A stretch of 35,325 nt of DNA from a virus, in the IMG/VR virus record IMGVR_UViG_3300042383_000185, positions 1 to 35,325 of that record, one strand, 5' to 3'. The position numbers and the translations under genes are program-made. The notes below the pieces were generated by a model. The model was given only the letters and a program-made list of their open reading frames with translations, was not told the origin of the DNA and did no database searches. Positions 233-35,325 of this stretch are shown here, piece after piece. How positions within the stretch are numbered: position 1 is the first letter of the stretch; each line of letters starts with the position of its first letter.

Positions 233-2200
233 TTATGCGATGGCGAGGTAGATGTAGGTTGCGCTGCTGACGTTGATGTTGCAGGTCGCCTCTTGGTTGA
301 CGACGATGCCTACGCTTGTCGGATCAACCGCGTCCGCGCTGGTCACTTCTGCTGCGGTGCTGTTTAGGCGCAGAGCAGGGTCTGCCGGTGCGGTAATGCC
401 GCGAGCCGAGTCGTAGACCCACCAATCACCGGTGGAGTCGGTGCGCTTCACAAGGAAGAACCGAGCGCCGCCAGTGAACCCGCAGTCGATGGTCTGGCTG
501 CTACCGTTGCCGGTGTATGAGCCGACCTTGCTGACGCCGGGGCAGGAGGCGAACAGGTAGGCCACATGAGTACCTCCAGACCCATTAACACCGCCACCGC
601 CATCTACTCTGAAAGTTGTTGATGTCGGCTGCGCCCATATACCGTCGCCGCCTGCATATGTAACAGTTGAAAGCGCCCAATCCAGATCTAAATATCCGGC
701 CCTATAGTTTGATGCGCCAAAATTTGAAAAAGCTCTCCAATTTGCAGCCGTGTCCCTCCGCTTAATTATTATCAATTCCGGAGTTACACTTAAATTGTGG
801 TCGACTGCTGTATTGTTAACGCCCGTCCCCCTATAGCAAACCACATCAAAGAAGCCGGGGGCTCGGCGAAAGTTCCAAAAAACATCGCTTAAAGAGCCCC
901 ACCAATTTGCCGCCCTAAACCCCGTATTATTCCAGCCCAAAGTTACTGCATTGGCCGTTGCTTCTGTGTTCGTACTTTGTGTAAACAAGTACCTCCCTGA
1001 TGCTGTTGCAGTTGTGCTGACTCCGCGCAGCCTATCGACCACATACCGCTCGTTACTAAGGTTCCGAACAGTGGCAATTTGCATATCTACTGGAAAGTCA
1101 GTGGTAATAACTTGCCCACCAGATGGCGTGACTGCCACAGGACTAAACACACTCGTCCCCGTCGTCGGAGTTTTCATCGGGCCGCGACGGATGGCGATGT
1201 ATATATATTCTCTGGAAGCACCTAGAATTGTTTGTGCGCCACTAGCAAAGCCTGTGGCGGTGGGAAACACATAATTACTATTGTTTGCTGCTTCTGCAGC
1301 GGAGGAATTTGGGGATAAGGTTGAGAATTGCTCATGTGCAAAGCCCCTCATCGTATCTACAACGTACCACGATTCCGGGAAATCTTGAGAAGTGCTTTTT
1401 AGCAAAAGCCATTGCGGTTCATACCCCAAAGACACCGAAAATTTACTAGAGGCATCGGTCGTAAAAGACCCACACGAAATCACATTGTCCGTACCCGTCA
1501 GGCCAAAGCCTCCTGCGTTGTGGGCGAAGAGGTAGGCGACGTATGTGCCGCCGTTAGAAGAAAAACTTTGAACATCAATTTGAGTTGTCGTGGCACCTAA
1601 CCACGGGCTAGATGCGGCAATACCAGGAAAAGTAGTTCCAGCAAATCCTTGATCGGTTTGCAATGTCCCAAAACCATTTGTCGAACGGTGCACCACAAAC
1701 CAGTTTCCTAAGCCGGTTGCGCTGGTCGCTTTAATGATTACGCATCCAGGCACAACACCAAGTGAATGCGAAATCCAATGTGGTGCTGCGCCAGTGCCAG
1801 TCCATGTGACAACATCAAAGAACTTCGGCTGCTTGCGGAATGTCCATGAGACGTAGTTGGTTCCGCTTGCATTGTTGCCGCCTACTCCAGTTCCGGTTCC
1901 CAAGGTGAAGCCTGTGGTACTAAACGCAGTTATTGCCTGCGTATAGCCTTGCTGCGAATTGGTCAGATTGGAATACAGCAGCGCGTTGTTCCCGGCTGAC
2001 CAACGGTTGGTATCAATCAGGATGTGATTGGAGGCGTTGTTTGTCCTGTCCTTGCCCCAAACCAACCCACCCTTGGTTGACAGATCAATCCCGTTGTTGA
2101 TGGTCAGGGAAGAGCCTGTTCCGGTGTAGAGCCACGTCGAAAACACGTCCTCGATAAACACCTGATCTCCAGAAACCTGCGAAGTGTTTGAGCTAAACAT
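233..2200 (-). CDS. Modular tail/receptor-binding protein of DUF7483 repeats, allele A
   Basis: A 655-residue protein made of about five tandem beta-rich repeats of the DUF7483 kind common in phage tail proteins. Repeat signatures include YTGNGSSQTIDCGF, ARFFLVKRT, WWVYDSARG and YIYLAIA near the C-terminus, and variants such as PQWLLLK, SWYVVDTMRG and YIYIAIRRGP further in. It starts at 2200 after GAGGTGA and lies 8 bases behind the fibre gene at 2209-4005, so the two are probably co-translated and may sit together at the tail tip. Compared with allele B at 33653-35325, residues about 93-134, 220-248, 335-354, 442-460 and 549-655 are nearly invariant. Residues about 135-219, 249-334, 355-441 and 461-548 are almost unrelated. 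The variable stretches are visibly richer in A and T than the rest of the genome. A receptor-binding or surface-exposed role is inferred from position and variability; no enzyme motif was seen. Confidence 0.8.
   Translation of the reverse strand: MFSSNTSQVSGDQVFIEDVFSTWLYTGTGSSLTINNGIDLSTKGGLVWGKDRTNNASNHILIDTNRWSAGNNALLYSNLTNSQQGYTQAITAFSTTGFTLGTGTGVGGNNASGTNYVSWTFRKQPKFFDVVTWTGTGAAPHWISHSLGVVPGCVIIKATSATGLGNWFVVHRSTNGFGTLQTDQGFAGTTFPGIAASSPWLGATTTQIDVQSFSSNGGTYVAYLFAHNAGGFGLTGTDNVISCGSFTTDASSKFSVSLGYEPQWLLLKSTSQDFPESWYVVDTMRGFAHEQFSTLSPNSSAAEAANNSNYVFPTATGFASGAQTILGASREYIYIAIRRGPMKTPTTGTSVFSPVAVTPSGGQVITTDFPVDMQIATVRNLSNERYVVDRLRGVSTTATASGRYLFTQSTNTEATANAVTLGWNNTGFRAANWWGSLSDVFWNFRRAPGFFDVVCYRGTGVNNTAVDHNLSVTPELIIIKRRDTAANWRAFSNFGASNYRAGYLDLDWALSTVTYAGGDGIWAQPTSTTFRVDGGGGVNGSGGTHVAYLFASCPGVSKVGSYTGNGSSQTIDCGFTGGARFFLVKRTDSTGDWWVYDSARGITAPADPALRLNSTAAEVTSADAVDPTSVGIVVNQEATCNINVSSATYIYLAIA
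566..1923 (-). repeat. Alternating conserved islands and hypervariable modules in allele A
   Basis: Comparing with 33988-35325 shows near-identical DNA islands at about 821-877, 1140-1197, 1458-1543 and 1800-1923. These are separated by modules of about 255-262 bases with little DNA similarity. Island starts are spaced about 319, 318 and 342 bases apart, matching one protein repeat of about 106 residues. The islands differ from one another in sequence, so each marks one specific junction. All are in the same orientation. Confidence 0.8.
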
Positions 2201-2208
2201 CAGTCACC

Positions 2209-4005
2209 TCACGCGCTGTAGTTCTGACCGGCGTTGCTGCCGTACCAGCGCGTGCCGTCGCAGGTGAAGACGTACTTGTCGGTTCTGCTTGCCGTCGAGG
2301 TTATCGTCGGCGCTGTGCCGCCCGGCCAACGGACAGCAGCAGGCCACGTCACCGTGCGCGAGCCGGTGCCGTCCTGGCGCAGCAGCAGCGTGAAACTCTC
2401 TCCGGCCGTCAGGGTGGGGAACGTGAACGTGCAGTTGCCCGTAAGCGTCAGGATCTGCACCGTGCCGGTAGCCAGCGAAATGGTGTAGGCCGTGCCGGTG
2501 TTGGCGGTGACCACGCCCTCGCGGTAGTCGCCGGCCAAGTCGAACACCGCCTGCGGAGAAGTCACCCCGATGCCTAGATTGCCGTTGAGGTAGTTGTCGG
2601 CCGTGCCGTCCATGTACAGGTTGTAGCGCCCGGTGCCCGCTGCCAGCGCTCCTCGGAACCCATAGTTGCTCGTGGCCCCCGTCATCGATGAGTCGGCCAC
2701 GAATCCGTACTGCGTAGTGACGGCAGATCCGGCGCCAAGTGTGGCCTGAGCAGCCTGATAGTGCGTTAGAGACCCAAGCGTGAACGCCGCAGCCTGAGTC
2801 CTGAGAACCGTTCGAAAATAAACACCGATGCCGGTCACATCCGATTGCAGAGTGCCGTCATTGACCACGCCAAACTGCGTTGTCGCGCCCGTCATTGCGT
2901 TAGCAATACGGATCTGGGCGTCGGTCTGCGCGGCGGCCCCAAGCGACAGCTTGGCATCGATGCGAAGCGGGCCAGTCATTGTGTCGCCGCCCTTGGCGAC
3001 ATATCCGGTGGCCGGCAGATAAGAAGCCACCCAGGCAGATCCGTTCCAGACCCGCATCTCGCCAGCCGTACTGTTGAAGTACAGCGCCCCGGTTAACAGC
3101 GCGTTGCCGTCGTTGTCCACCGTCGGGTTGCTGGTCTTCGGCCCCAGGTAGCGGTCATCGAAGCTGTCGAAGCTAGCGGCTGCAGAGGTGGCGCTGTTGG
3201 ACGCGGATGTCGCGCTTGCCGCTGCGGCCGTCGCGCTGCTCGCGGCATTGGTCGCGGAGGTCGAAGCCCCGCTGGCCGATGTCGATGCGTTGCTGGCGCT
3301 GGTCGCCGCAGCAGATTCCGAACTCGCCGCGTTGGATGCAGAGGTGGCCGCAGCCGCAGCGTCCACCATCAGGAACCACTTGGCCGCATCAGTGTTGGTG
3401 CTGATCGGCTGCGAGCCGCTCGAGGTGTGCTGCACCAGGCATTGCCAGATGTTGCTGTTGCTGGTGTCCTTGACGATGTCGCGGACGTAGTAGAGCGTGC
3501 TGGCCGCCCAGTTCCCGCGATTGGTGCCGATGGTGTCCGCGATGGTCGGGTTGCCATTGGCGTCGAAGCCCAGCGCCTTGCCGGCCCGCAGCGCTGCGCG
3601 AGGCAGCGTCATGTTGATGGTAGTCGGGTCAGTCTGCGGTGCCTGCAGCGCACGGCCCAGTCCCTCAGCATTCTGCTGCGAGAAGATGGTCTGCTGGTCG
3701 AGCTCGTTGTTGATGGTGTTGGCGAACAGGTCGCCGCCCGTCACGAAGTCGCTCAGGCGCTGGATGCTGCGGTTGCCGACGATGGCGATCTGCGTGGCCC
3801 CGGTCGGCGCGGCCGTCAATGTGATGCTGCCCGTGCCGTTGGCCGCAATGGTCACCGTGTAGTCTGTGGTCAGCGTCAGCAGCGCGTCGTCCCTGTAGAC
3901 CGCGATGTCGGTGTTCGCCAGGATCTCGAACGTGAACGCATAGGGGCCGGTGCCGCTCGCTGCGTATACCACTCGACGGGGGACATTGTTGATTGGCACG
4001 CCCAT
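2209..4005 (-). CDS. Tail fibre protein with T7 gp17-like N-terminus
   Basis: 598 residues. The first 150 or so (VPRRVVYAASGTGPYAFTF, then TDIAVYRDD, then RLSDFVTGGDLFANTINNEL) match the N-terminal region by which T7-type fibres attach to the tail. A carbohydrate-binding-like stretch follows (TLYYVRDIVKDTSNSNIWQC). Next come about 70 residues of Ala/Ser/Thr repeats (SATSASN, SAAA), likely a trimeric stalk, then YLGPKTSNPTVDNDGNALL and a beta-rich C-terminus ending KYVFTCDGTRWYGSN. The start at 4005 has GGAAGGA upstream. It follows the last internal virion gene after a 36-base spacer that holds a motif shared with the lysis leader. Fibre identity is strong; the receptor is unknown. Confidence 0.85.
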   Translation of the reverse strand: MGVPINNVPRRVVYAASGTGPYAFTFEILANTDIAVYRDDALLTLTTDYTVTIAANGTGSITLTAAPTGATQIAIVGNRSIQRLSDFVTGGDLFANTINNELDQQTIFSQQNAEGLGRALQAPQTDPTTINMTLPRAALRAGKALGFDANGNPTIADTIGTNRGNWAASTLYYVRDIVKDTSNSNIWQCLVQHTSSGSQPISTNTDAAKWFLMVDAAAAATSASNAASSESAAATSASNASTSASGASTSATNAASSATAAAASATSASNSATSAAASFDSFDDRYLGPKTSNPTVDNDGNALLTGALYFNSTAGEMRVWNGSAWVASYLPATGYVAKGGDTMTGPLRIDAKLSLGAAAQTDAQIRIANAMTGATTQFGVVNDGTLQSDVTGIGVYFRTVLRTQAAAFTLGSLTHYQAAQATLGAGSAVTTQYGFVADSSMTGATSNYGFRGALAAGTGRYNLYMDGTADNYLNGNLGIGVTSPQAVFDLAGDYREGVVTANTGTAYTISLATGTVQILTLTGNCTFTFPTLTAGESFTLLLRQDGTGSRTVTWPAAVRWPGGTAPTITSTASRTDKYVFTCDGTRWYGSNAGQNYSA

Positions 4006-25253: not shown

Positions 25254-25426
25254 GGCCTTCTCTCCATCAGCTTGCGATCCAGGTCGGCGGCGACCGAGCG
25301 CACGAAGGCCAGCAACTCCTGCAGATTGGCCACGCGCTGGCGCAGCCGGTTGATCTCATCGGTCACGTCGCGGCGCTCGAGCACCTCGCCGTCCTCCTCG
25401 ATGACCTGCTCGTAGTGAGTTCTCAT
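25250..25426 (-). CDS. 58-residue helical protein
   Basis: MRTHYEQVIEEDGEVLERR followed by a Leu-heptad helix (TDEINRLRQRVANLQELLAF). Predicted short coiled coil; probably dimeric. ATGA overlaps with RusA before it and the 50-residue gene after it. Function unknown. Confidence 0.6.
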   Translation of the reverse strand: MRTHYEQVIEEDGEVLERRDVTDEINRLRQRVANLQELLAFVRSVAADLDRKLMERRP

Positions 25427-25848
25427 GGCAGCACCTCGAATGCGTAGACCTCCACCAGGGGCTGCGTCGAGTAGCGCTTGGCCACGCGCAGCTGGCAGAC
25501 CTGCTTGTCATCCACGAACAGAGCGCCCTGGCAACCGTCCATCACCGCCTTGGCGATGTTGTCCAGGTCGGGCTTGCCGGGCACCACCAGGCCCTCGAGC
25601 GCCTTCAATCGCTTGCCCTTGGGCCAGCTGGCCGGCACCGGCATCCAGGCCTCAATGCGCAAGTGAATGGGCGAGGTCAGCGGCTTGATCTCACCCATGG
25701 CCTTCATGCACGCCAGGCGCACGCGGCTCTCGTAGGTCACCGTCTTGGCGTCGGTGTAGGTGGTGATGTAGGCACCACGCCTGGCAAAGCGGGGGCGGCC
25801 CTTGCCGACCGGCTCGCCGTCCACGGTGAAATGCACGGCCACAGCCAT
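25423..25848 (-). CDS. rusA: RusA-type Holliday junction resolvase
   Basis: 141 residues with the family signs in order: GEPVGKGRPRF (residues 11-21), GKPDLDNIAKAVMDG (91-105, Asp94, Asp96 and Asp104 as metal ligands) and GALFVDDKQV (108-117). It is a dimeric metal-dependent nuclease that cuts four-way junctions and here would resolve replication or recombination branches before packaging. Length is normal for the family. Sits in the leftward early block. Confidence 0.92.
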   Translation of the reverse strand: MAVAVHFTVDGEPVGKGRPRFARRGAYITTYTDAKTVTYESRVRLACMKAMGEIKPLTSPIHLRIEAWMPVPASWPKGKRLKALEGLVVPGKPDLDNIAKAVMDGCQGALFVDDKQVCQLRVAKRYSTQPLVEVYAFEVLP

Positions 25849-26618: not shown

Positions 26619-27293
26619 ATGGCACCGCACAACGGCAAGTTCGTCGCTTACTTCCGGGTCTCGACCGACCGCCAGGGCCGCTCGGGCCTGGGCCTGGACG
26701 CCCAGCGTGAGCGCATCCTGGCCTACCTCAATGGGGGCAACTGGTCGCTGATCGGGGAGTTCACCGAGGTCGAGTCGGGCCGCATGAATGACCGCCCGGC
26801 CCTGGCCGACGCCATCAAGCTGTGCAAGCGGGAGAAGGCCACCCTGGTGGTGGCCACCCTCGACCGCCTGACCCGCGACCTGGCATTCGGCGCGATGCTG
26901 CTCAACGACACCCGCGTGCGCTTCGTCTGCGCTGACTTCCCCGAGGCCAGCCGCGAGATGCTGCAGATGCGCATGGTCTTCGCCGAGTGGGAGGCCCGCA
27001 AGATCGGCGAGCGCACCAAGGCGGCCCTGGGCGAGCTCAAGAAGAAGGGCGTGAAGCTGGGTTCGCCCACGCCCGAGATCGGCAGCGCCGCCGGCATCAA
27101 GCGGCTGCAGGAGAAGGCCGACGCCTACGCAGAGCGCGTCGGGCCCATGGTGCGCGAGATCATCCGCAAGTCCGGCGCGAACACCCTGCGCGAAATCGGC
27201 CAGGCCCTCGAGGCCCGTGGCGTGGCGACGCCTCGCGGCGGCTCCAACTGGGGCCCGACGCAGGTCAGCAACCTGCTCAAGAGGATCAAGTGA
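26619..27293 (+). CDS. Serine recombinase (resolvase/invertase type)
   Basis: 224 residues with GAGGGAG upstream. YFRVSTDRQGRSGLGLDAQR holds the nucleophile Ser15, ATLDRLTRDLAFGAMLL is the second catalytic block, and the long E-helix region is EWEARKIGERTKAALGELKK. The C-terminal part (NTLREIGQALEARGVATPRG, then WGPTQVSNLLKRI) is the start of a Recombinase-type DNA-binding domain. It is much shorter than large serine integrases (usually over 450 residues), so it may be a compact integrase, a resolvase or an invertase. No attachment site was identified. Confidence 0.85.
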   Translation: MAPHNGKFVAYFRVSTDRQGRSGLGLDAQRERILAYLNGGNWSLIGEFTEVESGRMNDRPALADAIKLCKREKATLVVATLDRLTRDLAFGAMLLNDTRVRFVCADFPEASREMLQMRMVFAEWEARKIGERTKAALGELKKKGVKLGSPTPEIGSAAGIKRLQEKADAYAERVGPMVREIIRKSGANTLREIGQALEARGVATPRGGSNWGPTQVSNLLKRIK

Positions 27294-28578: not shown

Positions 28579-29538
28579 ATGGCCGGGAAACTGACCGACG
28601 ACAAGGAGATGAGCGCCAGCCGCCTGCCAGGCCTCATGGGCTACAGCAAGTACAGCAGCCCCAACGATGAGCTCCAGTTCAGCATCAACGCCATCGACGG
28701 CAAGGAGCGCCCCGACATCGGCAACGAAGCCATGGCCTGGGGCAACACCCTCGAGCCGGTGATCCTGACCGAGGCGGCCAAGCGCTTGTGCCTGGCCAGC
28801 TTCGACACCGACATCAAGCAGGCCTACACCCACCGCAGCTTCGCCCTCAGCTGCAGCCTGGACGGGGTGGGGTACGGGGATGGCCAGGAGATCGTGACCG
28901 ACCCGGAAGCCGGCATCTACGTCGTCGGCCAGGACAGCATCAAGCTGGACGGGCCCGGCGTGCTCGAGGCCAAGCTGACCAAGGTCGCGCCCGAGGAGAC
29001 CCCGCACCTGGCGCGGGGGCCGATTCAGCTGCAGGGCCAGATGCTGGTGACGGGGCACAAGTGGGGCGCGGTCTGCGTGCTCTACGAAGGGATCGCGTTG
29101 AGGGTGTTCCTGTTCTCGCCTCACCGCGACACACAGCAGGCCATCATCAAGGCGGTCACCGACTTCGAAGGCCGGCTCGAGAAGTACCGCACCACGGGCG
29201 AGATCGACTGGTATCCCCCGCAGAGCAGCAAGGAGCTCGACCGCATCCACCCCTATGCGGTCAACCGCGACCTAGTGAAGCTGCCCGACAGCGTCGAGGC
29301 CCTGGCCTCGAGCATCCTGGCCAGCAAGGCCACGATCAAGGCCGCCGAGGCCGGCATCGAGGAGTGCGAGAAGCAGATCAAGCAGCTGCTGGGCGACGCC
29401 GAGCGCGGCCAGGCGGGCAAGTTCCAAATCACCTGGGGAATGCGCAACTACAAAGCCCAATCGGCCCGCATGGTGCCTGCAAAAGACGCCTACAGCGTGC
29501 GCCAGAGCACCCTCACGATCAAGGAGGCCAGCACATGA
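28579..29538 (+). CDS. YqaJ-type viral exonuclease
   Basis: 319 residues. The lambda-exonuclease/YqaJ active-site order is present: Glu59 in WGNTLEP, Asp95 in SLDGVGY, Glu130-x-Lys132 in LEAKLT and Gln152 in IQLQGQM. Conserved flanks are SRLPGLMGYSKYSSPNDEL and YEGIALRVFLFSPHRDTQQA. It degrades one strand from duplex ends so the RecT protein can load. A C-terminal helical extension (about 225-290) could contact the partner. Next but one to recT, so the pair is clear. Confidence 0.88.
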   Translation: MAGKLTDDKEMSASRLPGLMGYSKYSSPNDELQFSINAIDGKERPDIGNEAMAWGNTLEPVILTEAAKRLCLASFDTDIKQAYTHRSFALSCSLDGVGYGDGQEIVTDPEAGIYVVGQDSIKLDGPGVLEAKLTKVAPEETPHLARGPIQLQGQMLVTGHKWGAVCVLYEGIALRVFLFSPHRDTQQAIIKAVTDFEGRLEKYRTTGEIDWYPPQSSKELDRIHPYAVNRDLVKLPDSVEALASSILASKATIKAAEAGIEECEKQIKQLLGDAERGQAGKFQITWGMRNYKAQSARMVPAKDAYSVRQSTLTIKEAST

Positions 29539-29711
29539 ACGTCGCCGCCCTCGAGCAGGCCTACGACAAGGCGGTCTGCGCCTTCTTAAACGCTGTGCCC
29601 AGCGCCAGCGAGGAGCAGGCCGAGGCCTGCATCGAAGCAATCTGCGAGATGGTGCTGGCCACCCTCGCATCACAACTGACGGAGGAAGCCCATGCAACTG
29701 ACAACCACTAA
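29535..29711 (+). CDS. 58-residue protein between exonuclease and RecT
   Basis: The ATG overlaps the exonuclease stop (ATGA), with AAGGAGG about eight bases before it, and the end overlaps RecT by 20 bases. Acidic and helical: NVAALEQAYDKAVCAFLNAV, then EEQAEACIEAICEMVLATLA. Placement inside the recombination pair suggests an accessory factor; family unknown. Confidence 0.6.
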   Translation: MNVAALEQAYDKAVCAFLNAVPSASEEQAEACIEAICEMVLATLASQLTEEAHATDNH

Positions 29712-30723
29712 TCAGCGGGGCTTCGCGCCCGCCACAATCACTGAGGCCATGCAGTTCAGCGAGATGCTGGCCGGCAGCAACATGGTGCCCAAGGCCTACC
29801 AGGGCAAGCCGCAGGACATCCTGGTCTGCGTGCAATGGGGCTATGAGATTGGCCTGGCACCCATGCAGGCGCTGCAGAACATCGCCGTCATCAACGGCAA
29901 GCCCAGCGTCTACGGGGACGCGGCCATGGCCCTGGTGCAGGCCTCGCCAGTCTGCGACAACATCGAGGAATACTTCGAAGGGGAGGAGGGCTCGGGCAAG
30001 TACCGCGCCGTCTGCGTCGCGCACCGCAAGGGCCGGCAGCCGGTCACCGCCACATTCTCGGTCGAGGATGCCAAGCGGGCAGGGCTGTGGGGCAAACAAG
30101 GCCCCTGGCAGGCCTACCCCAAGCGGATGCTGCAGATGCGGGCACGCGGCTTCGCCCTGCGCGACGCCTTCCCCGACGTGCTCAAGGGCCTCATCACCGC
30201 CGAGGAGGCCCAGGACTTCCCCGATGAGGAGCGCCGCCCGGCCAAGGAAATCACGCCCCGCAAGCCGGCCAACCCGCTGGACGTGATCTCCCCGCCTGAC
30301 CCGCCGCCTGCGCAGCTTGAGGCCCCAGCCCTGGCCGAAACCGAGTTGCAGAACGTGCCTGCAGAATCTGTAGAACCCGCTGCCGAATCCGAGCCGGTAG
30401 TGCTCGAGCACCTCGAGGTCATCGAGGTCGAGATCAATGAGCCGGATGAGCCAGAGAACATCCCCGGCTTCGCTCTTATGGTGCCCGGCAAGGATGAGCC
30501 GTTCTCCATGCACGGCAGCCTCGAGGAGTGGCAGGACGCCTATGAGGCGCTGGCCGACCGCACCGCCAGGGCAGGCAAGGTGCCCCCGCGTGACCGCATG
30601 ACCAGGCTGCGGGAACTGCGCGAGGCCAATGATGATGTCATGAAGAGCATGGACAGCCTCAAGCGGGTGCGCCACGTCGCCGCCCAGCAGCAGCGCCTGG
30701 CCGCGTTGGGAGCCGCCAAATGA
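29692..30723 (+). CDS. recT: RecT-family single-strand annealing protein
   Basis: 343 residues. The annealing core lies in about 1-185: EIGLAPMQALQNIAVINGKP, then SVYGDAAMALVQASPV, SVEDAKRAGLWGKQGPW and YPKRMLQMRARGFALRDAFP, which are RecT hallmarks. It is followed by a Pro/Glu-rich linker (about 185-260) and a C-terminal helical part (PPRDRMTRLRELREANDDVM). It pairs single strands after exonuclease action. This kind of protein tolerates mismatches, which matters for gene-module exchange. Confidence 0.88.
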   Translation: MQLTTTNQRGFAPATITEAMQFSEMLAGSNMVPKAYQGKPQDILVCVQWGYEIGLAPMQALQNIAVINGKPSVYGDAAMALVQASPVCDNIEEYFEGEEGSGKYRAVCVAHRKGRQPVTATFSVEDAKRAGLWGKQGPWQAYPKRMLQMRARGFALRDAFPDVLKGLITAEEAQDFPDEERRPAKEITPRKPANPLDVISPPDPPPAQLEAPALAETELQNVPAESVEPAAESEPVVLEHLEVIEVEINEPDEPENIPGFALMVPGKDEPFSMHGSLEEWQDAYEALADRTARAGKVPPRDRMTRLRELREANDDVMKSMDSLKRVRHVAAQQQRLAALGAAK

Positions 30724-30827
30724 AGGCGCTGACGTGGATCGCCGGGGTGACCCTGGGGTGGGTTGCCTTTGGCCTGTTCGCCAGGATCCTGGCCGAGCTC
30801 TTCCTGCTCGGCTGGGGACTGATCTAG
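30720..30827 (+). CDS. 35-residue membrane protein ending the rightward unit
   Basis: The ATG overlaps the RecT stop (ATGA). MKALTWIAGVTLGWVAFGLF, then ARILAELFLLGWGLI, is one amphipathic or transmembrane helix from end to end. The stop TAG shares the tetranucleotide CTAG with the stop of the endolysin on the other strand. Function unknown; could be membrane-active. Confidence 0.55.
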   Translation: MKALTWIAGVTLGWVAFGLFARILAELFLLGWGLI

Positions 30828-31483
30828 AGCACGGTCGCCAGCACCGCCTTGTAGCGGCGTTGGCGATCCTCGAGCCCGATGGTGCCCCCGTTAATGCGTT
30901 TGGTCAGGCCGACGAAGTCGTCCGCATCAGCGAGGGGCCCGCATTTGTTGCTCACCCAGAACCAGGCGGCAGAGGCAGCTGCGTGCTCGAGCTCGAGCAG
31001 CAGGTCGGGCTGAGCCACCAGGTCGAGGCCCAGGCCCTGGCCGCAGCGGGTGTAGTTGTCCTTGCCCGTCAGCTGCTTGAGACCCCGCCCGCGATAGCGC
31101 CAGCCGTCGCCCGACTCAATCGGGCCGTTGCCCATGCGCGCCGAATACACCACGTTGGCGATCATCTCGGGCTTGCGGTGCAGGGCCAGGGCGAACTTGT
31201 TGGGCTGGTTCTTGCCGTTGGCCTTCACCGCCTTCTTGTCGGGCCCGAGCACCGCAAAGCGGCTGGGCCAGATGGCGGCCATGCCGTCAGCGCTGTAGTT
31301 GAGATTCTCCTGCAGCAGGGTGTAGCCACCTGATTCGTGCGCGGTCTGCGCCAGCCAGGCGGCCACCTGGCGCGGGGTCTCGATGCCGAACCTAGCCATT
31401 GAATTCTGGACAGGCGCAAGCCAGCGCTCGGCCACGTCGGCCTTGATGCCAGCCGCCTTCAGCTGGTCAATGCCAGGCCTCAC
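30824..31483 (-). CDS. Endolysin, glycoside hydrolase family 19
   Basis: 219 residues. AAWLAQTAHESGGYTLLQEN holds the likely catalytic Glu50 and a second Glu59. GDGWRYRGRGLKQLTGKDNY and WFWVSNKCGPLADADDFVGL are also typical of GH19 phage lysins. It cleaves the sugar backbone of peptidoglycan. No signal peptide, so it needs the holin encoded just before it. The start is GTG in a GTGA overlap with the holin stop. Confidence 0.9.
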   Translation of the reverse strand: MRPGIDQLKAAGIKADVAERWLAPVQNSMARFGIETPRQVAAWLAQTAHESGGYTLLQENLNYSADGMAAIWPSRFAVLGPDKKAVKANGKNQPNKFALALHRKPEMIANVVYSARMGNGPIESGDGWRYRGRGLKQLTGKDNYTRCGQGLGLDLVAQPDLLLELEHAAASAAWFWVSNKCGPLADADDFVGLTKRINGGTIGLEDRQRRYKAVLATVL

Positions 31484-33135: not shown

Positions 33136-33642
33136 TCAAGCCGCTGCGCCAGGCGAACTAGGCCAGGCCACGTTCCACGGGAACCCCGCCTGCGCGGTGA
33201 CATCCCGCAGCGCCTGGCGGTAGGTCGCCCAGGCCGCCTTGTCCACGGGCGCGTCCAGCACCTGCGTCCAGTCGCTGTCCTTGAGCTTCTGGTTGCGCTG
33301 CTCGCGCATGGCCTTGGCCTGTTCTTCGTCCTTGCGGGCCTTGTAGGCGGCCTCGTGCTGCGCGGCCGTTGTCACGTTGCCGCTCTCGTCTGTGGTGTCG
33401 AAGAACGTCGGCCCCAGGGCGTACTTGGTGTACCACTTGCCGTCGATCTGCTCGACGCCAGCGTAGACGCTGAATTGGTAGCGGTCGCCGCCGGTGGCCT
33501 GCGGCCCCTCAAACACCACGTCACCGCCGAAGTCGTTGATGATTTCTTCGGTCAGCTGCGGTGGAAACCCGGTGTTGGGGAACAGCGCCCGGAACTCGCT
33601 GTGGGTGACCAGTGCGCCATCGGCGCGAAGTCGGATGTTCAT
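33136..33642 (-). CDS. Tail fibre assembly chaperone, copy B (complete)
   Basis: 168 residues from the ATG at 33642, with AAGGAGC upstream. The N-terminal part (RLRADGALVTHSEFRALFPN, then FGGDVVFEGPQATGG, QIDGKWYTKYALGPTFF) contacts or mimics a fibre-related fold. A charged helix follows (YKARKDEEQAKAMREQRNQK). The C-terminal part (LKDSDWTQVLDAPVDKAAWA, then YRQALRDVTAQAGFPWNVAW) is the phage tail assembly chaperone domain of the PF16778 type. It probably helps fold or attach the tail protein encoded just upstream. Confidence 0.8.
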   Translation of the reverse strand: MNIRLRADGALVTHSEFRALFPNTGFPPQLTEEIINDFGGDVVFEGPQATGGDRYQFSVYAGVEQIDGKWYTKYALGPTFFDTTDESGNVTTAAQHEAAYKARKDEEQAKAMREQRNQKLKDSDWTQVLDAPVDKAAWATYRQALRDVTAQAGFPWNVAWPSSPGAAA

Positions 33643-33652
33643 GCTTTGCTCC

Positions 33653-35325
33653 TTATGCGATGGCGAGGTAGATGTAGGCTGCGCTGCTGACGTTGATGTT
33701 GCAGGTCGTTTCTTGATTGACGACGATGCCCACGCTTGTCGGATCAACAGCGTCCGCGCTAGTCACTTCTGCTGCCGTGCTGTTGAGCGCGAGGGCAGGG
33801 TCGGCCGGTGCGGTAATGCCGCGTGCAGAGTCATAGACCCACCAATCGCCGGTCGCGTTGGTGCGCTTCACAAGGAAGAACCGAGCGCCGCCCGTAAACC
33901 CGCAGTCGATGGTCTGGGTGCTTCCATTGCCGGTGTATGAGCCGACCTTGCTTACGCCGGGGCAGGAGGCGAAGAGATAGGCAACGTAATTTTGTCCACT
34001 GACATTGCTGTCACTGCTGACAGAAAACACTGTGGACGTGGGTGCGGTGGAGTTCAAATTGGCGGATGCAAATGCCGGAACCCCTGCATTATTATTTAGC
34101 GCCAGCAAGCCAAATTGCTGCGCTAGGTTAAGCGCAGTTGACCATGTAATCCAACTGTACCCTGCGGAAGTCCTGTTTTTAATTATCAGCATTTCAGGCA
34201 CAACGCCTAAATTATGGGTCACCGTTGTCGCAGAACCCGTCCCCGTATAGCAAACCTCATCAAAGAAGCCGGGGGCGCGGCGGAAGTTCCAGTAGGCGAT
34301 ATTGCTACCTGACCCAAACCAGTTATCTGTCACTGACGTATTTGACTGAAAAGAAACGCCAAAATTCGTACCAGTATTTTCTGCGGCTGTAGATGAAATG
34401 TTTAATTGCGCATATCTGGTAGTGGAGTTGCTGCGCATACGGTCAAAAACAGATGTTGAGCCACTTCCACCACGAACTTGTCCGATAAATAAATCGGCGG
34501 GGAAGTTAGTAGTCATTGAACTTCCACCAGCCTGAGCGGCAGGACTAAACACACTCGTCCCCGTCGTCGGAGTTTTCATCGGGCCGCGACGGATGGCGAC
34601 GTAGATGTAGGTGGCGTTGTAAGACAGGTCTGTTCCGCCTTGGACAACAAATCCAGTTGGGGTTAGGTTTGCTACATCCCCTAGACTTTCTGCACCTGAC
34701 GTATTTGGGAAAAGTCTTGCATCCCCATTACTTGCGTATGAAAGCCCGCGCATATTGTCGTAAATACGCCAGTTTTCAACGCCGTCTGAGCGTTTAAATA
34801 GTATCCACTGTGGTTCCCACCCAAGCGTCACTGTCGTGTCCCCGGAGGCCGGTGTCGTAAACGACCCACACGAAATCACGTTGTCCGTACCCGTCAGGCC
34901 AAAGCCTCCTGCGTTGTGGGCGAAGAGGTAGGCGACGTAACTCTGGCCGGTTTCGTTGACATAGGTACCAGCGCCAAGAGTGAACTGAGTTGAAGTTGGT
35001 TCGGTGTTGGCAAAGGTATTACCTAGGGTCTGCTGTGCAGCAGTTGTATTGAGGAAGAGGGCTTGAGTCGCGCCTAGCGACCTGTGGTAGACAACCCAGT
35101 TGTAATCAGCGCTCCCGCCGGTACTTGTGCATTTTATGATGATAAAGCCAGGCGTGCTGCCAAGACTGTGGTTAATGTTTCTGCCGGCAGTGTTATTGCC
35201 TGTCCACGTCACCACATCAAAGAACTTCGGCTGCTTGCGGAATGTCCATGAGACGTAGTTGGTTCCGCTTGCATTGTTGCCGCCTACTCCAGTTCCGGTT
35301 CCCAAGGTGAAGCCTGTGGTACTAA
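33653..35325 (-). CDS. Modular tail/receptor-binding protein of DUF7483 repeats, allele B (N-terminus missing at window edge)
   Basis: About 557 residues of the same protein as 233-2200, open to the window edge; the true start lies beyond it. The C-terminal 107 residues and the boundary blocks match allele A almost exactly: YVSWTFRKQPKFFDVVTWTG, YLFAHNAGGFGLTGTDNVIS, AIRRGPMKTPTTGTSVFSP and WNFRRAPGFFDEVCYTGTG. The four modules between them differ almost completely (for example PQWILFKRSDGVENWRIYDN in B against PQWLLLKSTSQDFPESWYVV in A). Each module keeps the DUF7483 fold signs, so function is likely preserved while surfaces change. Confidence 0.8.
   Translation of the reverse strand, partial: STTGFTLGTGTGVGGNNASGTNYVSWTFRKQPKFFDVVTWTGNNTAGRNINHSLGSTPGFIIIKCTSTGGSADYNWVVYHRSLGATQALFLNTTAAQQTLGNTFANTEPTSTQFTLGAGTYVNETGQSYVAYLFAHNAGGFGLTGTDNVISCGSFTTPASGDTTVTLGWEPQWILFKRSDGVENWRIYDNMRGLSYASNGDARLFPNTSGAESLGDVANLTPTGFVVQGGTDLSYNATYIYVAIRRGPMKTPTTGTSVFSPAAQAGGSSMTTNFPADLFIGQVRGGSGSTSVFDRMRSNSTTRYAQLNISSTAAENTGTNFGVSFQSNTSVTDNWFGSGSNIAYWNFRRAPGFFDEVCYTGTGSATTVTHNLGVVPEMLIIKNRTSAGYSWITWSTALNLAQQFGLLALNNNAGVPAFASANLNSTAPTSTVFSVSSDSNVSGQNYVAYLFASCPGVSKVGSYTGNGSTQTIDCGFTGGARFFLVKRTNATGDWWVYDSARGITAPADPALALNSTAAEVTSADAVDPTSVGIVVNQETTCNINVSSAAYIYLAIA
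33988..35325 (-). repeat. Alternating conserved islands and hypervariable modules in allele B
   Basis: Islands lie at about 34234-34291, 34540-34599, 34854-34939 and 35202-35325. They match allele A with few or no differences and are separated by modules of about 246-262 bases. The last 100 or more bases of the window are identical to 1812-1923. Confidence 0.8.

Follow-up and report, generated by a model that had tools for sequence, protein, structure and literature searches.

The repeat interiors of a phage tail protein (Pfam family DUF7483) are replaced independently of one another and exchanged across unrelated phages, each keeping to its own slot in the gene, with breakpoints at the joints between repeats, four of which (J1-J4) are conserved even at silent sites. 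The best explanation, which we consider very likely (probability roughly 0.85), is that the interiors are swapped by homologous recombination at slot-specific joints when phages co-infect a cell, a setting that is itself inferred. The gene is common to many aquatic phages and comprises about five repeats, and these phages appear to mix their surface parts from a large common pool.

The window (the whole stretch of viral DNA analysed, 35,325 nt) has the gene content of a podovirus, with profile matches to a P22-like coat protein (PF19821) and a head-tail connector (PF12236), and also encodes a T7-like capsid assembly protein, a terminase large subunit, a nozzle-type tail protein, and an internal virion protein. 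An endolysin with a chitinase class I (GH19) domain is encoded at 30824-31483, and neither RNA families nor tRNAs were found in the window. The contig is broken at the DUF7483 locus and its ends overlap (1-1923 versus 33421-35325), the overlap falling within one gene of which two alleles, A and B, were assembled. This overlap makes A and B allelic versions of a single locus, and not a duplication, in a circular genome of about 33.4 kb. IMG/VR classes the record as linear, while ends that are two alleles of the same locus indicate a circular or circularly permuted molecule; end-repeat checks fail on this genome because the modules have diverged. Both alleles belong to DUF7483, scoring well above the curated cut-off of 27 for PF24299 (A: E 1e-69, 235 bits; B: E 6e-79, 266 bits) and lying in the tail gene cluster, flanked by the genes for a tail fiber (2209-4005) and a tail chaperone (PF16778). 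They also match PHROG tail fiber families strongly (phrog_24898 for A). Allele A is identical in three other IMG/VR assemblies (four including the window). The neighbouring tail fiber is itself mosaic, as its relatives match well only over the first 150-340 residues or only over the last part. Feature coordinates are listed in Table 1.

Table 1. Positions of the alleles, their joints and modules, and the recombination genes in the window (aa, residues of allele A unless a length is given; sameness, agreement at four-fold sites among unrelated alleles)
Feature	Positions	Strand	Remarks
Source DNA, virus, IMG/VR record IMGVR_UViG_3300042383_000185	1-35,325		35,325 nt
Allele A, complete DUF7483 tail protein gene	233-2200	-	655 aa, open frame
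Joint J1, allele A	1796-1855	-	aa 116-135; sameness 0.575
Module body M1, allele A	1538-1795	-	35% DNA identity to B; exchanged alone in 20 family pairs
Joint J2, allele A	1451-1537	-	aa 222-250; sameness 0.575; breakpoint zone
Module body M2, allele A	1211-1450	-	45% DNA identity to B; exchanged alone in 6 family pairs
Joint J3, allele A	1133-1210	-	aa 331-356; sameness 0.604; breakpoint zone
Module body M3, allele A	881-1132	-	39% DNA identity to B; exchanged alone in 15 family pairs
Joint J4, allele A	809-880	-	aa 441-464; sameness 0.547; breakpoint zone
Module body M4, allele A	575-808	-	39% DNA identity to B; exchanged alone in 17 family pairs
Joint J5, allele A	425-574	-	aa 543-592; aa identity 0.76, sameness only 0.37
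C-terminal part MC, allele A	236-424	-	A/B about 92%, next best allele 67%
Allele B, same gene, 5' end cut by contig end	33653-35325 (33653-35323 also given)	-	556 aa
Joint J1, allele B	35198-35257	-	alignment
Joint J2, allele B	34847-34933	-	alignment
Joint J3, allele B	34535-34612	-	alignment
Joint J4, allele B	34223-34294	-	alignment
RusA-like Holliday junction resolvase	25423-25848	-	PF05866 E 1e-33, phrog_140
Serine resolvase/invertase	26619-27293	+	early region
RecE-like exonuclease	28579-29538	+	phrog_434 E 1e-30, Pfam YqaJ
RecT-like single-strand annealing protein	29692-30723	+	phrog_561 E 5e-54, Pfam RecT PF03837

In a gapped, protein-guided alignment of the two alleles, DNA identity is 93% in J1, 93% in J2, 88% in J3, 79% in J4, 87% in J5, and 91% in the C-terminus, versus 35% in M1, 45% in M2, 39% in M3, and 39% in M4, with exact runs of 56-60 nt in J1-J3. 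An initial annotation, made from sequence alone, had claimed that conserved blocks, nearly identical even in DNA, alternate with variable modules at intervals of about 320 bases. The alternation held (joints 79-93%, modules 35-45%), as did the spacing (joints start at residues 116, 222, 331, 441, and 543 of A, 306-330 nt apart) and the near-identity in DNA, except that J4 is weaker. Its description of the modules as almost unrelated held for sequence only, since all are diverged versions of one DUF7483 repeat and not different folds, and the module length it gave (85-88 residues) depends on where boundaries are drawn, being 78-86 aa with those used here. The C-terminal part MC is specific to a lineage and not freely exchanged, given how much closer A and B are to each other there than to the next allele. 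Nonetheless, J4 of B best matches unrelated phages (L336 91%, L184 90%, L180 90%, and L212 88%; L numbers denote collected alleles), and A, at 79% over the aligned joint, is not among the best four matches. As A and B are closest in the C-terminus and yet the J4 of B is nearer other phages, this joint probably arrived together with a module.

Alleles were collected through IMG/VR scans with A, the gene neighbouring A, B, and two further alleles, which yielded 242 distinct alleles. The search peptides were matched as degenerate DNA in all codons and so cannot create silent-site conservation, but an enrichment for joint peptides is possible, and mosaicism already seen was the reason for choosing some of the queries; frequencies reported here are therefore not unbiased. 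The alternation of joints and modules is present in the 242 distinct alleles, which excludes chance. Because no recombined copy of any A or B module turned up among the collected alleles, the proof of exchange rests on the gene family and not on these two alleles alone.

With a near-identical module body defined as one sharing at least 85% of its DNA, 77 allele pairs have at least one such body in M1-M4, while all four slots are shared in only 7. Sharing was confined to M1 in 20 pairs, to M2 in 6, to M3 in 15, and to M4 in 17, the rest being combinations. The same module, at 97-100% DNA identity, is thus found between different neighbours, as the initial annotation had predicted, and neither outcome that would have refuted it (even divergence along the gene, or modules never occurring in new combinations) was encountered among the 242 alleles. 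Sharing forms networks: L302 has M2 in common with L183, M3 with L292, and M4 with L049 and L055, whereas L016 has M1 in common with L022 and L249 and M2 with L043, and L043 in turn has M3 in common with L249. In the near-clonal pair L049/L302, whose flanks are 100% identical upstream and 99.7% downstream, M1-M3 are at background level and the gene is identical from M4 to its end; in L049/L055 (flanks 97% and 99.6%), M1-M2 differ and M3-M4 do not; and in L175/L190 (flanks 98% and 97%), M4 is in common and M1-M3 are not. Unrelated modules between near-clonal flanks cannot be explained by divergence through mutation. At the other extreme, L016/L022 have M1 at 0.99 with an upstream flank matching at 68% over only a fifth of its length, and no upstream match exists for L183/L302 (M2 at 0.99), L170/L181 (M3 at 0.98), or L024/L234 (M1 at 0.98). 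Single exchanges were seen in all four slots, in near-clonal pairs (flanks 97-100%) and in pairs with little or no flank similarity alike.

Modules keep to their slots. Although the repeats are related, matches across slots are nearly absent, with one M1/M4 pair at 61% and none above. At 85% identity, the 242 alleles hold 219 clusters of M1, 224 of M2, 213 of M3, and 217 of M4, in 235 distinct combinations, and Chao1 estimates 937-1927 modules per slot, a rough figure given the query-biased sampling. Two or three tandem copies or pieces of the gene occur on 14 contigs (phages with two or three tandem copies include L077, L081, L084, L173, L186, L192, L205, L211, L252, L325, and L334); no module is common to the copies of a single genome, whose joints resemble one another no more than joints from different genomes do. 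Bacterial genomes yielded only two distant relatives, both in metagenome-assembled contigs, and therefore no host was assigned. The alternation is also seen in three cultured Roseobacter phages, CRP-1, CRP-4 (Zobellviridae), and CRP-13, for which one and the same marine host strain is on record, with identities of 0.60-0.87 in J1-J4 and 0.33-0.51 in the modules m1-m4; having no module in common, they confirm the architecture but not the exchange.

Mapped along the gene, identity between alleles comes in blocks that switch at joints (the maps of L211/L313 and L248/L252 are to be disregarded, as they represent the wrong copy of a duplicated gene). After deduplication, 47 of 54 ends of near-identical tracts lie in joint zones, compared with 35% expected from their share of the span (p 3e-15), so that the breakpoint clustering predicted by the initial annotation was borne out. 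Of the seven ends outside joints, four lie at A322-324 and one at A216, right at joint edges. The joint around a shared module is nearly identical, and identity drops to background at its far side.

Conservation of the joints extends to DNA. Among unrelated alleles, agreement at four-fold degenerate third bases is 0.55-0.60 in J1-J4, versus 0.32-0.35 in M1-M4, 0.37 in J5, 0.37 in M0, 0.30 in the C-terminus, and 0.28 expected from codon usage. Matching the codons for protein conservation leaves silent-site sameness at 0.59 in joints versus 0.33 (p 2e-11). Unrelated pairs have an exact run of at least 23 nt in common in 23% of cases in J1, 31% in J2, 16% in J3, and 23% in J4, compared with 0-0.8% in the modules and 3-4% in the N-terminus and J5, whereas runs of at least 31 nt at a joint are found in only 6-10% of unrelated pairs. 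According to published minimal lengths, Red-beta needs 23-27 nt for pairing and RecA needs 31-34 nt (PMC3945230), and based on these lengths J1-J4 are the effective landing sites for homologous pairing. Similarity from joint to joint is correlated for neighbours (0.21-0.40 within J1-J4) and falls to 0.06 for J1 versus the C-terminus, a decay with distance that recombination predicts. The joint consensuses differ among themselves (longest common run 14 nt, J2/J5), and such slot-specific sequences account for slot fidelity and for the preservation of length and frame. J5 is a domain boundary at which M4 is replaced, but it shows hardly any conservation at silent sites; this may reflect J5 staying with the lineage-specific C-terminus, although that is not proven.

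We propose that each repeat interior is replaced independently by homologous recombination between different phages in one cell, the joint being the only stretch alike enough in DNA for pairing, so that crossovers would be located there and the whole interior moved as a unit. With a sequence particular to each joint, a module would be held to its slot, and the protein would remain in frame and able to fold. Selection for altered surface specificity would maintain very many modules in circulation, and exchange between lineages would keep joints alike. Whether joints stay alike through exchange itself or through selection for exchangeability is not separated by the data, and the cause of their conservation is thus inferred. 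A bolder reading, which remains no more than possible, is that joints are standardised DNA connectors held alike by selection for recombinability itself. If true, unrelated phages in many aquatic samples would have in common a pool of about a thousand or more modules per slot, which would plug into any member via four slot-specific connectors.

The simplest account, although an inferred one, is general homologous recombination carried out in co-infected cells by proteins of the phage or the host. In the window phage, pairing may be carried out by the RecT-like protein, a possible candidate enzyme for the exchange, with the RecE-like exonuclease as its candidate partner. Across 28 long contigs with the gene (window included), however, RecT was found in 3, ERF in 3, serine recombinase in 2, and family A DNA polymerase in 6 (5 over cut-off), and reverse transcriptase (RVT_1) in none; with RecT and ERF each in only 3 of 28, exchange is not tied to one phage enzyme. 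Host RecA or other recombinases may serve.

In an AlphaFold2 model built with 68 family sequences (pLDDT 86.6, pTM 0.87), each joint spans the final strand of a domain, the linker behind it, and the strand that opens the following domain (J1 115-122 and 128-134; J2 219-225 and 241-247; J3 331-338 and 352-357; J4 439-444 and 451-457; J5 544-550 and 557-563), and the module body is therefore predicted to be the interior of one beta domain. Foldseek found no convincing match to a solved structure with the full model and no match at E<=0.001 with one domain modelled alone (pLDDT 93), and a profile search of PDB sequences with the protein gave nothing convincing, so the fold is left unnamed. The protein is likely to bind a receptor, as inferred from its gene family, position, and variability in the absence of adsorption data.

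A scheme without exchange, in which modules diverge very fast by point mutation under diversifying selection while purifying selection holds the joints, would account for joints conserved in protein, as expected of structural strands. It is all but excluded by near-clonal phages (flanks 97-100%) carrying background-level modules beside an identical neighbour module, by shared modules (97-100% DNA identity) in different contexts, and by the conservation of silent sites in joints. Chimeric assembly at joints, in which similar joints would let metagenomic contigs be joined so as to fake module swaps, is the serious artefact concern: every mosaic pair derives from IMG/VR contigs, joints can have long exact runs in common (as A and B do in J1-J3), and the window contig is itself broken at the locus. 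While single metagenomic contigs could be chimeric, it is very unlikely that chimeras explain the pattern, because allele A recurs unchanged in four assemblies and L049 in two (=L051), and with L302 in three (=L303=L305) the strong mosaic pair L049/L302 is replicated on both sides. Shared modules moreover connect different samples, runs of at least 31 nt at a joint are too infrequent among unrelated alleles, the cultured phages CRP-1, CRP-4, and CRP-13 have the same alternation, and silent-site conservation does not depend on mosaic contigs.

A constraint on nucleotides other than recombination (codon choice for folding at domain boundaries, or RNA structure) could have kept the DNA of J1-J4 while modules were exchanged. 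Silent-site conservation does span unrelated phages, and DNA-level selection of other origin could contribute in part. As a full explanation it is unlikely, since J5 is also a domain boundary (76% aa identity) with silent-site sameness of only 0.37, joint similarity decays along the gene, and B, lineage-close to A in MC, has a J4 nearer other phages. Site-specific recombination at joints, as in an invertase system or shufflon, is suggested by the serine resolvase/invertase gene in the window and is all but ruled out: the enzyme is present in only 2 of 28 long contigs (beyond the window, in one near relative, L194, and in no other), joints share no core motif (longest consensus run 14 nt), no inverted repeats of at least 30 nt were found in the window, and modules do not switch slot. 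The locus does not, accordingly, qualify as a shufflon or invertible tail locus. A hypervariable tail protein and the contigs with tandem copies or pieces would be compatible with a diversity-generating retroelement or with silent cassettes archived in the phage's own genome. Both mechanisms can be set aside with near certainty. Reverse transcriptase is absent from all 28 contigs, so membership of the retroelement class is not met, and whole bodies of about 80 aa are replaced rather than scattered adenines changed; tandem paralogues without a shared module or homogenised joints speak against an archive. The term cassette exchange used by the initial annotation is right as a description, with no sign of a dedicated cassette enzyme or a within-genome archive. 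Homologous recombination at the joints remains our preferred reading.

The principle of swapping adhesin segments is already known from T-even gp38, as is domain shuffling in phages. In gp38, conserved motifs alternate with hypervariable segments, and recombination between the motifs swaps the segments (Montag 1987, Tetart 1998, cited in PMC12892980 and PMC7468147) and changes the specificity of this host-recognition protein (PMC12892980, PMC7468147). The DUF7483 gene resembles gp38 in conserved/hypervariable alternation and in recombination between conserved segments, a change of receptor specificity being only inferred. However, the motifs of gp38 are glycine-rich and its hypervariable segments serve as receptor loops within a single tip domain, whereas the DUF7483 protein consists of successive beta domains of about 105 aa, with the whole interior exchanged per domain, strand-linker-strand joints, and joint silent sites conserved across unrelated phages. 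It is also of a different protein family and lacks the marks of gp38 itself (gp38 homology, a poly-glycine II sandwich, and glycine-rich motifs): its sole Pfam match is DUF7483, and its joints are not glycine-rich motifs.

Domain mosaicism is general among the receptor-binding proteins of phages (Smug et al. 2023, PMC10684548), and the cases described there likewise show near-identical fragments in otherwise unrelated contexts and ongoing cross-taxon exchange. Their tail examples involve non-homologous C-terminal domains swapped on a retained N-terminus, whereas here homologous repeats are replaced singly and in place, in four interior slots. Near-identical cores with independently shuffling host-recognition variants are also known from cryoconite phage modules (Bellas 2020, PMC7468147) and metaviromic islands (Mizuno 2014, PMC3909814), but as units that are genes, domains, or islands of 0.5-5 kb and not bodies of about 240 nt within one gene with defined joints. 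In relaxed recombination by Rad52-like recombinases (De Paepe 2014, PMC3945230), short imperfect homology flanks an unrelated piece, including in lambda stf/tfa; by analogy, it is likely to be the engine of DUF7483 exchange, although homology is incidental in those cases and here lies at regular positions and is conserved at silent sites. The type I restriction specificity subunit HsdS exchanges recognition domains by recombination through conserved regions. HsdS has two domains and belongs to a restriction enzyme, whereas the DUF7483 gene has four or more slots and encodes a virion protein, and no shared ancestry is shown.

DUF7483 was not named in any paper in the literature searched, and searches on conserved linkers, conserved DNA sequences, and recombination hotspots returned nothing closer than the works cited. 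What is new is independent, repeat-by-repeat exchange in at least four slots of one gene via joints conserved in DNA across unrelated phages. This provides a countable, slot-resolved natural case of combinatorial diversification of a phage surface protein, visible between phages with 97-100% identical flanks. It can now be asked directly if DNA connectors are under selection for recombination or if recombination merely homogenises them, how turnover of surface modules compares with that of the genome backbone, and whether one module pool serves unrelated phages on one host. The cultured phages CRP-1, CRP-4, and CRP-13, which are listed on the same marine host strain and have the same alternation, make it testable.

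Silent-site conservation also rises weakly (0.44-0.48) near the N-terminus, at 2045-2098 of the window (aa 35-52 of A; A33-52 in the smoothed profile), perhaps marking a further joint for whole-gene exchange. In CRP-1, CRP-4, and CRP-13, DNA identity over aa 15-50 is 84-87%.
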